Origin: a virus
Length of the DNA stretch: 40,796 nt
Direction: 5' to 3' (one strand)
Virus record (IMG/VR): IMGVR_UViG_3300048929_000057
Coordinates: 1-40,796 of that record
Shown here: positions 128 through 3,683 of the stretch, piece by piece
Numbering within the stretch: the first letter of the stretch is position 1
Layout of the letters: each line of letters opens with the position of its first letter
Notes under the pieces: model-generated
What the model was told of the DNA's origin: nothing
The model's database searches: none
The model's input: the letters and a program-made list of their open reading frames with translations, nothing else
Position numbers and translations under genes: made by a program

Positions 128-361
128 TCAGCGGGCTACGCAATCATCAATGTTTCGCACAAACCACATCCGGGTGACACTGTGCTGATTTCCTATTGCG
201 GCCGCACGGAGTTCGCCATTGTGCAGGGCAAGGCGCTGATCACTCCTGACGGTGAAGCGCTTGAAGGTGATGCGCTGGACGACACGACTGTGCACGGCGT
301 GGTAACCCACTTCCTGAACCGTGTTGGCCGCCAGGACGACGAACCAATACCAGTCATGTAA
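32..361 (+). CDS. UmuD-like (S24 family) small protein, probably catalytically dead
   Basis: This 109-residue protein opens with MGFPSPAKDY, which resembles the residues around the self-cleavage site of UmuD. Its C-terminal half (GDTVLISYCGRTEFAIV, then DTTVHGVVTHFLNRV) follows the UmuD' pattern of GDxVI...GEFTV...DVFGVVxHV. The middle segment that carries the catalytic Ser in a GDSM motif is missing, so peptidase activity is unlikely. The start lies after GTGAGG, and a strong promoter overlapped by a LexA box sits just upstream across the circle junction. It could interfere with LexA, UmuD or a phage repressor, or be a vestigial SOS protein. The family resemblance is good; the role is inference. 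Confidence 0.6.
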   Translation: MGFPSPAKDYAEAALTITSLCGYDGNCRTIETSAGYAIINVSHKPHPGDTVLISYCGRTEFAIVQGKALITPDGEALEGDALDDTTVHGVVTHFLNRVGRQDDEPIPVM

Positions 362-382
362 CATCTGCGCGGGCGTGATAGT

Positions 383-399
383 ATTACCTGCATGGTAAT
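383..399. promoter_or_regulatory. 17-bp operator-like palindrome (site 1)
   Basis: ATTACC-TGCAT-GGTAAT is a perfect inverted repeat with a 5-bp centre. It lies between the UmuD-like gene and the small terminase gene. The same palindrome recurs at many intergenic sites in this genome, including three in the immunity region, so it is probably the phage repressor's site. Confidence 0.7.
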
Positions 400-402
400 A
401 AA

Positions 403-419
403 ATTACTCAGGTGGTAAT
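403..419. promoter_or_regulatory. 17-bp operator-like palindrome overlapping the terminase ribosome binding site (site 2)
   Basis: ATTACT-CAGGT-GGTAAT has one mismatch from the palindrome at 383-399, with centres 20 bp apart. It contains the AGGTGG that serves as ribosome binding site for the small terminase and touches its start codon. Repressor bound here would block elongation or initiation at the head of the virion operon. Confidence 0.6.
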
Positions 420-1020
420 GATGCCCGCAACACCAAAACCGCATAAGCGCAAATCGACGCAATTTGAGCCTATCAGCGTTCTGAAGGAAGCCTATTGCCA
501 GGAATACATCAAATGCCCGGAGAATCAGACTCAGGCGGCGATTAATGCCGGGTATTCCCCCAATACAGCGGCTAAGTTTGCCAGCCAGAATATGCGCGAT
601 GAGCGCGTCCAGAAACGAATCGCAGAACTGATGGAAGAGCGCAACAAGCGCATGCGCGTCAGCGCTGATTACGTCCTCATGCGCCTGGTGGAGATCGACC
701 AGATGGACGTGCTGGACATCCTGAACGACGACGGCGGGATGAAGCCGATTAGTCAGTGGCCTAAGGTATGGCGAACGTCAATCAGTGCAGTGGATATAAA
801 CCGTATCAGGATGGCAATGAAGGATGATGAGGAAGATATCGAGTCCACTCTGCAAAAAATCAAATGGCCTGACAAGGTGAAGAACCTCGAGCTCATCGGT
901 AAGCACGTCGACGTCAACGCGTTCAAAGAGCGCCTTGAGGTTTCCGGTACCGTCACTATCGCCGAGCGCATGGCCGCCGCGCGCCGCCGCGTCAAAGAGC
1001 AGGCTGGTGGTGAAGAATGA
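418..1020 (+). CDS. Terminase small subunit
   Basis: About 200 residues of the Terminase_2 type. The N-terminal part carries a helix-turn-helix-like segment (LKEAYCQEYIKCPENQTQAAINAGYS followed by NTAAKFASQNM) typical of DNA-recognising small terminases, and the C-terminal part is basic and rich in R, K and A. It would recognise the packaging site and recruit the large subunit at the portal. ATG codons at 418 and 421 are both usable with the AGGTGG at 410-415. The stop overlaps the large terminase start (ATGA), the usual pairing of the two subunits. Confidence 0.9.
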   Translation: MMPATPKPHKRKSTQFEPISVLKEAYCQEYIKCPENQTQAAINAGYSPNTAAKFASQNMRDERVQKRIAELMEERNKRMRVSADYVLMRLVEIDQMDVLDILNDDGGMKPISQWPKVWRTSISAVDINRIRMAMKDDEEDIESTLQKIKWPDKVKNLELIGKHVDVNAFKERLEVSGTVTIAERMAAARRRVKEQAGGEE

Positions 1021-2492
1021 CAGCAGCAGCCATGTCGCCGGAAGAGCAGCTCGTCGAGGATATCGCATCGTTCACGTATGACCCGCTGGGCTATGCGCTT
1101 TATGCGTTCCCTTGGGGCGAGGAGGGTACGGAGCTGGCGCATGCCACCGGGCCGCGTAACTGGCAGGCTGACGGATTCCGTGAGATACGCGATCACCTGC
1201 AAAACCCTGCAACTCGTTATCAGCCAATCATGATTGCCCGCGCATCAGGCCACGGTATCGGTAAATCTGCATTCATCTCAATGCTGATTAAGTGGGGAAT
1301 GGACACCTGCGAGGACTGCAAGGTGGTGGTGACCGCCAACACCGACAACCAGCTGCGCACCAAGACCTGGCCGGAAATCATCAAATGGTCGAACCTGTCC
1401 ATAACGAAAGAGTGGTTCACCTGCACCGCAACGGCGATGTACAGCAACGATCCGGGTCACGATAAACGCTGGCGCGCTGACGCTATACCGTGGTCTGAGC
1501 ACAACACAGAGGCGTTCGCCGGCCTGCACAACGAGCGTAAGCGCATCATCGTAGTATTCGACGAAGCCTCCAACATTGCCGATCTGGTGTGGGAGGTTGC
1601 CGAGGGTGCGCTGACGGACGAAGACACTGAGATCATCTGGGTGGCGTTCGGGAACCCGACGCGTAACACCGGGCGTTTCCGCGAATGCTTCCGCAAATAC
1701 AAGCACCGCTGGAAGTGCGCGCAGATTGACAGCCGCACCGTCGAGGGAACGAACAAACAGCAGCTGCAGAAATGGGTAGATGATTACGGCGAAGACAGCG
1801 ACTTCGTGAAGGTCCGTGTGCGGGGGATCTTCCCTGACGCGTCAGAACTGCAGTTTATCCCGACCGGCCTCACCGACGAGGCAATGAAGCGAACGGTAAC
1901 CGCAGCGCAGGTTGCGCACGCTCCGGTGATTATCGGCGTCGACCCGGCTTATTCCGGCGTGGATGACGCGGTGATATATCTGCGCCAGGGTCTGCACAGC
2001 AAAGTCCTCTGGACCGGCAACAAGACCACAGACGATCTGATTATGGCGAAGCGCATCGCAGACTTTGAAGACCAGTACCAGGCTGACGCGGTGTTTATCG
2101 ACTTTGGCTACGGTACAGGGCTGAAGTCCATCGGTGACGGCTGGGGCCGGACGTGGCAGTTAATCCCGTTCGGCGGTGGCTCGACCGATCCGCAGATGCT
2201 CAACAAGCGCGGTGAGATGTTCAACAGCTGCAAGACGTGGCTGAAGCTCGGCGGTGCGCTGGATGACCAGGAGACCGCTGATGACCTGTCGGCGGCAGAG
2301 TACAAAGTCAGGGTGGACGGCAAGATCGTCATCGAGCCGAAGGAAGACATCAAAGAGCGTTTAGGCCGCTCGCCTGGCAAGGGTGATGCGCTGCTGCTGA
2401 CGTTTGCTTTCCCGGTCACGAAGCGCCTGCGCATGCCAGGGCAGGAGAACCAGCAGGGGAAAGCTGTTACAGAATATGACCCGTGGAAATAA
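1017..2492 (+). CDS. Terminase large subunit
   Basis: A 491-residue packaging motor. The Walker A motif GHGIGKS is at residues 78-84, and the Walker B strand IIVVFDE at 177-183 ends in the catalytic acidic pair. FGNPTRNTGRF near residue 211 is the coupling region. The C-terminal RNase H-like nuclease shows acidic residues in VIIGVDPAYSG (D309) and AVFIDFGYG (D362). It cuts concatemeric DNA and pumps it through the portal with ATP. The ATG overlaps the small-subunit stop. A circularly permuted genome fits a headful-type enzyme. Confidence 0.95.
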   Translation: MTAAAMSPEEQLVEDIASFTYDPLGYALYAFPWGEEGTELAHATGPRNWQADGFREIRDHLQNPATRYQPIMIARASGHGIGKSAFISMLIKWGMDTCEDCKVVVTANTDNQLRTKTWPEIIKWSNLSITKEWFTCTATAMYSNDPGHDKRWRADAIPWSEHNTEAFAGLHNERKRIIVVFDEASNIADLVWEVAEGALTDEDTEIIWVAFGNPTRNTGRFRECFRKYKHRWKCAQIDSRTVEGTNKQQLQKWVDDYGEDSDFVKVRVRGIFPDASELQFIPTGLTDEAMKRTVTAAQVAHAPVIIGVDPAYSGVDDAVIYLRQGLHSKVLWTGNKTTDDLIMAKRIADFEDQYQADAVFIDFGYGTGLKSIGDGWGRTWQLIPFGGGSTDPQMLNKRGEMFNSCKTWLKLGGALDDQETADDLSAAEYKVRVDGKIVIEPKEDIKERLGRSPGKGDALLLTFAFPVTKRLRMPGQENQQGKAVTEYDPWK

Positions 2493-2494
2493 CA

Positions 2495-2514
2495 TAGCCC
2501 GCATTAGCGGGCTA
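2495..2514. terminator. Hairpin between the large terminase and the reverse-strand gene
   Basis: TAGCCCGC-ATTA-GCGGGCTA forms a perfect 8-bp stem with a 4-nt loop just after the terminase stop. No T-run follows on either strand, so it is a weak intrinsic terminator or an RNA-stabilising hairpin between two convergent genes. Confidence 0.5.
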
Positions 2515-2532
2515 TCGTGACATGCCACGTAA

Positions 2533-2925
2533 TCAATAAGTGATTTTATCAAACGCAGCGTTGATCGCTTCTGCGATATTTTCTGCTAATGTTTTGTCGA
2601 ACCCCGAATTTTTCTCCAGCACCGAAGAGAGGCACTGAAGTTTGTGGACGTGAATGCACTCGGCGCGCTGTTGGTTTCGTTCAGCCTGGGTCGGCTCTTT
2701 AGCCATAAAAGAGCTATGAAAAGTTTCATGGGCGCCGCCGCCCATGTTGTACCACTGCCAGCATTTCCCGAATTCACGGTTCAGATCGACATCATTCAGG
2801 CAATAAAACACTGACGGGTCAGGTACCGCATCTTCATGCTCAGGCTGATAGCCTTCGCCGATAGCTTTTTTCAGGTATTCGATCATCTCGCCGCGCTTAT
2901 TATACTCTTCAATCTCGTTCATCAT
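2533..2925 (-). CDS. Hypothetical 130-residue protein, reverse-strand insertion in the virion operon
   Basis: Translation from MMNEIEEYNKRGEMIEYLKK, preceded by AAGGTGAAT, gives 130 residues. It is acidic at the N-terminus and contains CWQWYNMGGGAHETFHSSFMAKEPTQAERNQQRAEC, followed by a helical C-terminus. I do not recognise a family. It runs against the terminase and portal genes and lies between them, which is typical of a moron or lysogenically expressed cargo gene. A hairpin plus T-run lies directly upstream of its ribosome binding site on the same strand. Longer in-frame starts up to 3027 would run through that hairpin and are unlikely. Confidence 0.65.
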   Translation of the reverse strand: MMNEIEEYNKRGEMIEYLKKAIGEGYQPEHEDAVPDPSVFYCLNDVDLNREFGKCWQWYNMGGGAHETFHSSFMAKEPTQAERNQQRAECIHVHKLQCLSSVLEKNSGFDKTLAENIAEAINAAFDKITY

Positions 2926-2934
2926 ATTCACCTT

Positions 2935-2959
2935 AAAAAAATGCCCGGACGAACCGGGC
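2935..2959 (-). terminator. Intrinsic terminator reading leftward, in front of the 130-residue gene
   Basis: On the reverse strand GCCCGG-TTCGT-CCGGGC is followed by A and seven T residues. It would stop leftward transcripts arriving from the portal side, so the 130-residue gene is insulated or attenuated. On the forward strand no T-run follows, so late rightward transcription should pass. Confidence 0.75.
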
Positions 2960-2963
2960 GAAT

Positions 2964-3570
2964 GGAAGCAAGGGTCTACGGAGTGCCTTCCTTGGCGGGT
3001 GATGCAGGGTTTACAGCGCAACGTCATCGGGATGGCGTTCTGCTGTAAAAAGGGCGGTGGTCAGAAGTGGGAGCAACTGCCACCGCCAAAGCTACACGCA
3101 TTACCTGGTACTGCAGTATCACGGTCCTAAGGCGTGATTGGGTTGTGGTGGCCGGTGCTGAACTCCGGCTTGCTGCGACTGCCTACAGCGGGCTGCGTGG
3201 CCACACCGAATCCAGCGAAAGATTCTTGCCCTTGCGCATCAGCCTGCGCATTCACCACAACGGAAAGAGCACTATGCTCGGTTTCTAAGCCATGCCCACA
3301 CTCGCCGCGGGAAATGCTCTTACCTGTTATGGCCTCGTCTCTTCCGAGGTGTCACACCGTATCGCCACGATGGTGAGTCGTCATGTCGTGCATACCGATA
3401 ACACTGACTTGCACATTCCGGCTACCCGCTCAGAGGATAAGGAAACCAAGGAACCCCGCCGGACCGCTGCGGCACATGTGCCATATGCCGTACTGCTCAC
3501 ACCTGGAAGCGCACTCACCAGTTTGATTTAGCGACAAGACCTCACAGAACCGATATCAAAGTGCGCTTTC
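2964..3570 (+). ncRNA. Candidate large structured noncoding RNA between terminase and portal genes
   Basis: No ORF here has a convincing ribosome binding site or recognisable product, yet the stretch is dense in inverted repeats. The best is 3011-3048: TTACAGC pairs with GCTGTAA and ACGTCAT with ATGGCGT around a CGGG loop, with a single C-C mismatch over 17 positions. Others are 3053-3060 with 3080-3087 (8 bp), 3118-3123 with 3133-3138, 3148-3153 with 3199-3204, 3208-3212 with 3221-3225, 3233-3238 with 3245-3250, 3333-3337 with 3345-3349, 3468-3474 with 3486-3492, and 3505-3515 with 3560-3570 (11 bp). GGGTCT at 2972 can pair with AGACCT at 3537, closing the whole domain. The non-Watson-Crick positions in several helices are G-U as read on the + strand, so the RNA is probably rightward. 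Size and setting recall giant phage RNAs such as GOLLD and ROOL, but I cannot assign a family. Confidence 0.5.
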
Positions 3571-3577
3571 ATACTGT

Positions 3578-3594
3578 GTTACCTGAAGGGTAAT
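3578..3594. promoter_or_regulatory. 17-bp operator-like palindrome (site 3)
   Basis: GTTACC-TGAAG-GGTAAT, five of six positions symmetrical. It lies between the structured RNA candidate and the portal gene block. A perfect leftward -35 hexamer (TTGACA on the reverse strand, 3615-3610) is next to it, so it may control a promoter reading toward the 130-residue gene. Confidence 0.6.
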
Positions 3595-3621
3595 AATTAC
3601 ACGGCATTATGTCAATACACT

Positions 3622-3645
3622 ACGTAAAATAATCCGTATATGGTT
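3622..3645 (+). promoter_or_regulatory. Composite conserved element, degenerate copy
   Basis: The copy reads ACGTAA-AATA-ATCC-GT-ATATGGTT. It matches the elements at 24221, 32768 and 33933, apart from the first six bases. It stands upstream of the small gene that precedes the portal. Function unknown; position suggests transcription control. Confidence 0.45.
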
Positions 3646-3683
3646 AAATTGGTAATAATTTAATCGTGTGTGAGGTTATCGCT

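Follow-up and report, generated by a model that had tools for sequence, protein, structure and literature searches.

A modular structured RNA predicted on the minus strand between the terminase and portal genes of epsilon15-like phages

Described phage RNAs and their likeness to the locus

GOLLD is a large RNA of phages and prophages, which is often encoded near tRNA islands, sometimes has tRNAs inside, is raised during lysis, and comprises a conserved and a variable part (PMC12286853). ROOL is also found in phages near tRNAs and exhibits pseudoknots and kissing loops (PMC12286853). STnc100 (RF02076) lies downstream of stx in Stx2 phages (PMC12370729) and was detected by RNA-seq in EDL933, with one copy verified by Northern analysis (PMC5331693); PasD has been described as its structural homologue (PMC13192938). 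RNA C and RNA D of T4 (species 1 and 2) are stable phage RNAs located within a tRNA cluster and in this resemble the RNA predicted here, but they were rejected as relatives, as the covariance models of its modules A and B (defined below) found no match in the T4 region.

The locus under study lies in the window, i.e. the whole stretch of DNA that was analysed (a record of 40796 bases), whose gene order is that of epsilon15-like phages (Uetakevirus): TerS, TerL, a minus-strand gene, a gap, a small gene and portal. The gap between the terminase and portal genes (~2930-3660) contains only small ORFs. The first-pass annotation had remarked that it holds no credible ORF, and this was borne out: no reading frame is conserved, at most 16 of the 53 homologues of the module A core are open in any frame of either strand, and the spacing between conserved blocks takes all values modulo 3 in these homologues, so that a coding reading was rejected. 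The plus-strand ORF 3292-3528, which matches PHROG 6855, lies over module A and was rejected as a gene, being explained more simply as a member of an antisense ORF family. PHROG 6855 and gp37 of mEp460 (L005, 3062-3430, plus strand) are both antisense over A and are probably spurious families that arose from the conserved RNA.

The predicted RNA matches no catalogued RNA family. At the gathering score no Rfam family was matched in the window, and GOLLD, ROOL and STnc100 gave no match between 2800 and 3800 even at E-values up to 5. The window was also searched together with 28 related loci, at the gathering score or with relaxed limits, and nothing covering A or B was found; the matches at cutoff were tRNA, C4, isrK, int-alpA, an IS frameshift element and one STnc100. 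The module sequence strings were also sought in the literature, and none was found there. The likeness to GOLLD and ROOL proposed at first pass thus holds for the phage setting, the proximity to tRNAs and the pseudoknots, and fails for the strand and for the Rfam match. With GOLLD the RNA shares large size, a phage origin, neighbouring tRNAs (the window copy itself is without a tRNA) and a division into conserved and variable parts, but it measures about 540 nt rather than over 800 and has a different sequence. ROOL is similar in size to the window RNA, and it too is a large pseudoknotted phage RNA near tRNAs; unlike ROOL, the window RNA is built from modules that are also found alone.

The resemblance to STnc100 concerns module B, with which it shares, in the same register, GGUG, AAU, a hairpin, an insert, a CCGG(loop)CCGG hairpin and CACC, whereas the hairpin loops differ and module A and helix H are absent from STnc100. 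The B model scored STnc100 at 7.7 bits in the right register (search of 301 bases), which is a lead and not a significant match; conversely, the STnc100 model found no significant match in the window and does not recognise B. This comparison drew on the literature and on a copy in the Klebsiella phage UPM 2146, where a separate module matches RF02076 at 47.0 bits. In that phage (L232, MN478483.1) the minus strand of 300-3600 constitutes 3.3 kb without annotated genes upstream of tRNA-Met and tRNA-Arg, with many long hairpins with matching arms, one of which corresponds to B and one to the Rfam STnc100. DicF (RF00039) resembles the terminator hairpin of the RNA (22.3 bits), a score far under the family cutoff of 48, and its model is 52 positions long.

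Ends, strand and modules of the predicted RNA

Comparison of related loci indicates that the interval very probably specifies a structured noncoding RNA on the minus strand, with the following features:

3610..3615, minus strand: predicted promoter -35-like element TTGACA, from the alignment of epsilon15-like loci
3579..3593, minus strand: conserved inverted repeat TTACC..GGTAA near the predicted 5' end, a possible operator or 5' hairpin
3048..3580, minus strand: whole noncoding RNA, ~530-550 nt with predicted ends; promoter-like sequence, modules A and B, terminator
3505..3570, minus strand: 5' hairpin, arms 3560-3570 and 3505-3515 (AAAGCGCACT / AGTGCGCTT)
3303..3498, minus strand: module A, a doubly pseudoknotted conserved domain (covariance model R1, 186.4 bits)
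3259..3328, minus strand: helix H with a variable loop, arms 3313-3328 and 3259-3273, partly inside the end of A and overlapping the B closing stem
3142..3261, minus strand: module B (covariance model R2), with closing stem, P2, insert and P3
3253-3261 with 3142-3150, minus strand: B closing stem, 9 bp
3234-3249, minus strand: B hairpin P2
3170-3233, minus strand: B hypervariable insert between P2 and P3
3151-3169, minus strand: B hairpin P3
3047..3087, minus strand: intrinsic terminator of the RNA, GGCGGTGG..CCACCGCC followed by TTTTT, weakly DicF-like
3011..3048, no strand assigned: inverted repeat just past the terminator, conserved in the alignment of epsilon15-like phages
2935..2959, minus strand: second terminator directly before the downstream minus-strand gene, found by the scan and conserved
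2533..2925, minus strand: downstream gene, 130 aa, PHROG 4846

The TTGACA element is exact in 8 of 10 aligned epsilon15-like upstream regions (TTGACC and TTGGCA in the others), while the predicted -10 element, TACCCT at 3592-3587, is a poor match, and a consensus promoter scan of the window did not report the element at 3610..3615. According to the annotation of epsilon15, the region corresponding to the TTACC..GGTAA repeat contains an IHF site and one for the lysogeny repressor. Two strongly conserved copies of the motif AATTATTACC lie in the divergent promoter region (window 3579-3660); they are possible repressor operators common to the RNA and the portal operon. At the other end, the terminator at 3047..3087 is conserved in epsilon15-like relatives, and terminators are generally enriched 3' of B (35 of 113 copies, compared with 0.55 in shuffled sequences). 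The place of the downstream gene is variably occupied in relatives of the epsilon15-like type, among others by Tad2-like or Gp49/66 genes.

These boundaries modify the initial picture of a giant structured RNA on the plus strand of the virion operon, of which the large structured RNA persists and the strand and operon do not: the predicted RNA is divergent from the portal operon and heads towards the minus-strand gene downstream. Since the RNA ends near 3047, positions 2964-3047, including most of the 3011-3048 hairpin, are downstream of it. Both this hairpin and the 11-bp pairing of 3505-3515 with 3560-3570, singled out at first pass, do exist and are conserved, with most of the former outside the RNA; the proposed closing helix (2972-2977 with 3537-3542) involves sequence past the terminator and is unsupported. 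The central G-U pairs of the 3011-3048 repeat fit the plus strand. The 11-bp 5' hairpin is kept with a paired change in the phage Tyrion (L007), which has AAAGCGCGCT/AGCGCGCTT in place of the arms in the window.

The folding energy of the whole stretch is ordinary (z-scores of -1.14 for the plus and -1.59 for the minus strand, 200 dinucleotide shuffles) and that of module A alone gives a z-score of +0.68, so we discarded these values as uninformative on both strands. As the sequence alone folds no better than its shuffles, the question was decided by comparison, and strong covariation was found among relatives in both modules. Copies of A and B were gathered with exact patterns inside A and B, and near-invariance at the pattern positions is therefore partly due to selection, from which the other helices are free. 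In a sequence-based alignment of 53 copies, module A has 31 pairs, with 97.9% of cells forming standard pairs and double-sided changes in 15 pairs (115 double-change cells compared with 31.1 in shuffled alignments); none of 500 shuffles was as good and no slid version came close. In its predicted fold, the loop of a 5' hairpin pairs with downstream sequence (GCACAU/AUGUGC), CGGUCCG forms a helix with CGG and GCCG, the CACC loop of one hairpin pairs with a GGUG located further on, and CCUCG/CGAGG closes another hairpin. Module B has 22 pairs, 98.4% paired, 8 of them with double changes (14 double-change cells versus 1.2 shuffled; again 0 of 500 shuffles as good), and the loops of P2 and P3 are complementary, suggesting kissing pairs. 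The B insert varies from 11 to 161 nt and falls into 59 clusters among 126 copies. In the inserts of two loci (L022 and L138) we noticed a hairpin, CGGACTTTTAATCCG, with the look of a tRNA-Lys(UUU) anticodon arm, and a close variant of it in L102. Helix H is re-paired with different sequences in different phages: in a pooled comparison over near and diverged H arms, the mean duplex energy was -17.5 for a locus's own upstream sequence and -13.2 for the same upstream shuffled, and 44 of the 110 loci had an own upstream that fell within the top 5% of all upstream sequences.

The first-pass claim that G-U pairs fit the plus strand only is reversed by the pair statistics. At fixed pairs, G-U cells outnumber A-C cells by 108:4 in A, 37:1 in the 5' hairpin of A, 22:5 in B and 6:0 in the kissing pairs, and helix H is stabler on the minus (RNA) strand in 57 of 74 cases and less stable in 11. 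Module B model R2 gives 124.8 bits on the minus strand of the window versus 7.4 bits on the plus strand. The minus strand is assigned because of the G-U/A-C counts, the duplex energies of H, the strand of neighbouring tRNAs and the promoter-like and terminator sequences; on this comparative evidence we regard the existence of the RNA and its strand as near certain.

Genomic settings and the association with tRNAs

At an E-value of 0.01, similarity to some part of the RNA was seen in the DNA of 258 phage records, in 577 plasmids and in 2291 of the 5426 complete E. coli genomes; pattern scans located module A in at least 120 IMG/VR contigs and module B likewise in at least 120. The modules are scattered over unrelated phages (epsilon15-like, HK620, mEp390, P1, P7, Klebsiella giants). 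They occur together in the window, mEp460, SopranoGao and Tyrion; mEp390 has A alone, beside repressor genes, as have P1-like elements, close to a tRNA; in HK629 and HK620 it is B that stands alone, between the region of the late-gene regulator and holin. In P7 the modules reside in the C1-controlled tRNA/ban region under a C1 operator, and in HK620 B lies behind pR'/qut in the late leader near holin. A has a DUF2829/Tad2-like gene as its neighbour both in a Klebsiella prophage of the epsilon15-like type and in a plasmid of the P1-like type. Three loci (L143, 3950-4981; L004; L178) carry second A copies ~0.8 kb from the first.

When species genomes were scanned for the B pattern, 52 stretches were obtained, mostly from Enterobacterales, with some from Aeromonas, Janthinobacterium and others; some of the most distant (L241, L253) score low with the B model and may be due to chance. 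When the A and B models were run on 149 genomes of one bacterial family, strict filters, which make the counts lower bounds, left A in at least 2 genomes and B in at least 17. Copies of B scoring 73 and 72 bits (L259 and L289) were seen in contigs labelled as Chitinophagales and Desulfonatronovibrio MAGs, well outside Enterobacterales, although the binning of these phage contigs may be wrong.

Forty-one epsilon15-like loci, near-identical ones included, in which both flanks were recognised, have a promoter-to-terminator slot of 249 to 920 nt, filled by A then B, by A then tRNA-Arg(tct) (23 of the 41) or by other sequence. Comparison of these loci shows that the modules of the predicted RNA are exchangeable and that tRNA-Arg takes the place of B in many relatives. 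The slot is shortest in epsilon15, where all that is left of A is a remnant scoring 29.9 bits; the RNA would therefore be dispensable in that phage. Neither ARAGORN nor Rfam detects a tRNA in the window, whereas the slot of the RNA holds one in relatives.

Among non-redundant loci, all 35 tRNAs found up to 1 kb from A or B share the strand of the module and none is on the opposite one, and the modules have about eight times as many tRNAs per kb around them as sequence farther off (0.092 versus 0.011). Since a tRNA lies within 1 kb in only 21 of 191 non-redundant loci, the link is an enrichment and not a rule. In P7 and in a Taipeivirus the modules adjoin tRNAs. A T-arm motif was found in 7 of 74 H loops (0.036 expected under simple shuffling), although the Rfam tRNA model does not see these T-arms in the related loci searched. 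The sequence at the H position of a Massilia locus (L239) could be read by eye as a putative tRNA-Gly whose acceptor stem is extended. Upstream of one B copy (L019, 6883-7012, minus strand) there is a weak match to the Rfam permuted tmRNA (30.7 bits, cutoff 47).

Possible functions of the RNA

We propose that the minus strand of this locus would give rise to a structured RNA of ~540 nt from its own promoter, divergent from the portal operon, ended by the intrinsic terminator and composed of exchangeable modules, namely A, helix H and a frame B round a hypervariable insert. Its structure and strand come from the comparisons above, and we infer its promoter, ends and expression. During the lytic phase the RNA would serve in trans as a scaffold for a variable, sometimes tRNA-like cargo, which it would stabilise and present, and in this it might be functionally similar to GOLLD or ROOL. 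As a whole, the reading as a modular scaffold with variable cargo is, on balance, the probable one; it is favoured because of the covariation, the strand, the mobility of the modules, the tRNA link, the diversity of the cargo, the lytic setting and the anti-defence neighbours. The lytic-programme setting is given by annotation in the P7 and HK620 loci, and a repressor site is annotated in epsilon15. What speaks against the scaffold reading is the ordinary folding energy, the partly selected invariance of the pattern positions, the small share of loci with a tRNA within 1 kb, the presence of T-arms in no more than about a tenth of the H loops, the likeness of B to STnc100, which would favour a base-pairing sRNA, and the reduction of A to a remnant in epsilon15. 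Perhaps the scaffold could serve as a decoy against host RNA-targeting factors, for instance tRNA-cleaving defences? Such a decoy or anti-defence role, suggested by the resemblance to tRNAs and by the neighbouring anti-defence genes, is a tentative and somewhat unlikely proposition. The role in packaging, capsid content or lysis put forward at first pass finds no support, because the same modules are found in unrelated phages by repressor, tRNA, tail or helicase genes.

The main rival, which we hold to be unlikely, is that of a base-pairing sRNA (or sponge) of the STnc100/PasD sort bound by Hfq or ProQ, with the variable inserts as changing seed regions and the DicF-like terminator as the 3' end. 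The common register of B and STnc100 (GGUGAAU, hairpin, insert, CCGG(loop)CCGG, CACC) agrees with it, as do the late-leader position of B near holin in HK620/HK629 and that of STnc100 behind stx (PMC12370729), the detection of STnc100 in EDL933 by RNA-seq and Northern analysis (PMC5331693), its structural homology to PasD (PMC13192938) and the terminators following many B copies; but the B model barely responds to STnc100, STnc100 itself has no match in the window, and module A, the exchange with a tRNA and the long structured inserts are ill-suited to a short seed-bearing sRNA. It is still less probable that A and B work in cis, as elements of phage tRNA transcripts and of early or late ones that would guide processing or shield these transcripts from host ribonucleases: all 35 nearby tRNAs share their strand, as in the adjoining arrangements of P7 and Taipeivirus, and the epsilon15 record predicts an RNase III site in this region, yet most copies have no tRNA within 1 kb and the window RNA has its own terminator ahead of the next gene, which leaves hardly any downstream transcript to shield. 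A function of the DNA, such as recombination, packaging or operator sites, would explain the mosaic spread among unrelated phages, the very conserved ends with variable middles and the position by the terminase genes in the window phage, but it is very improbable, as the excess of G-U over A-C is not expected from DNA pairing, the strand is always that of the tRNAs, and terminators follow. Least credible of all is an RNA on the plus strand forming part of the virion operon transcript, to which the plus-strand G-U pairs of the 3011-3048 hairpin would conform, but to which both the B model scores and the pair statistics run contrary.

The modules are present in P7, HK620 and epsilon15-like phages, and about two fifths of complete E. 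coli genomes contain DNA similar to parts of the RNA, yet the modules have no Rfam family and are currently annotated as nothing or as antisense hypothetical proteins. A broader reading, in which arrays of up to ~3 kb combine A, B, H and further elements, is that the phages of enterobacteria draw on a common, large and uncatalogued set of exchangeable RNA cassettes, which move together with tRNAs and anti-defence genes and bear hypervariable tRNA-like cargo for RNA counter-defence; we consider this doubtful. As phages of the P1 and HK620 types are laboratory systems, the function of large tRNA-linked phage RNAs could be tested in E. coli, and the decoy reading, if true, would make such RNAs a general means by which phages counter the RNA-targeting immunity of their hosts.
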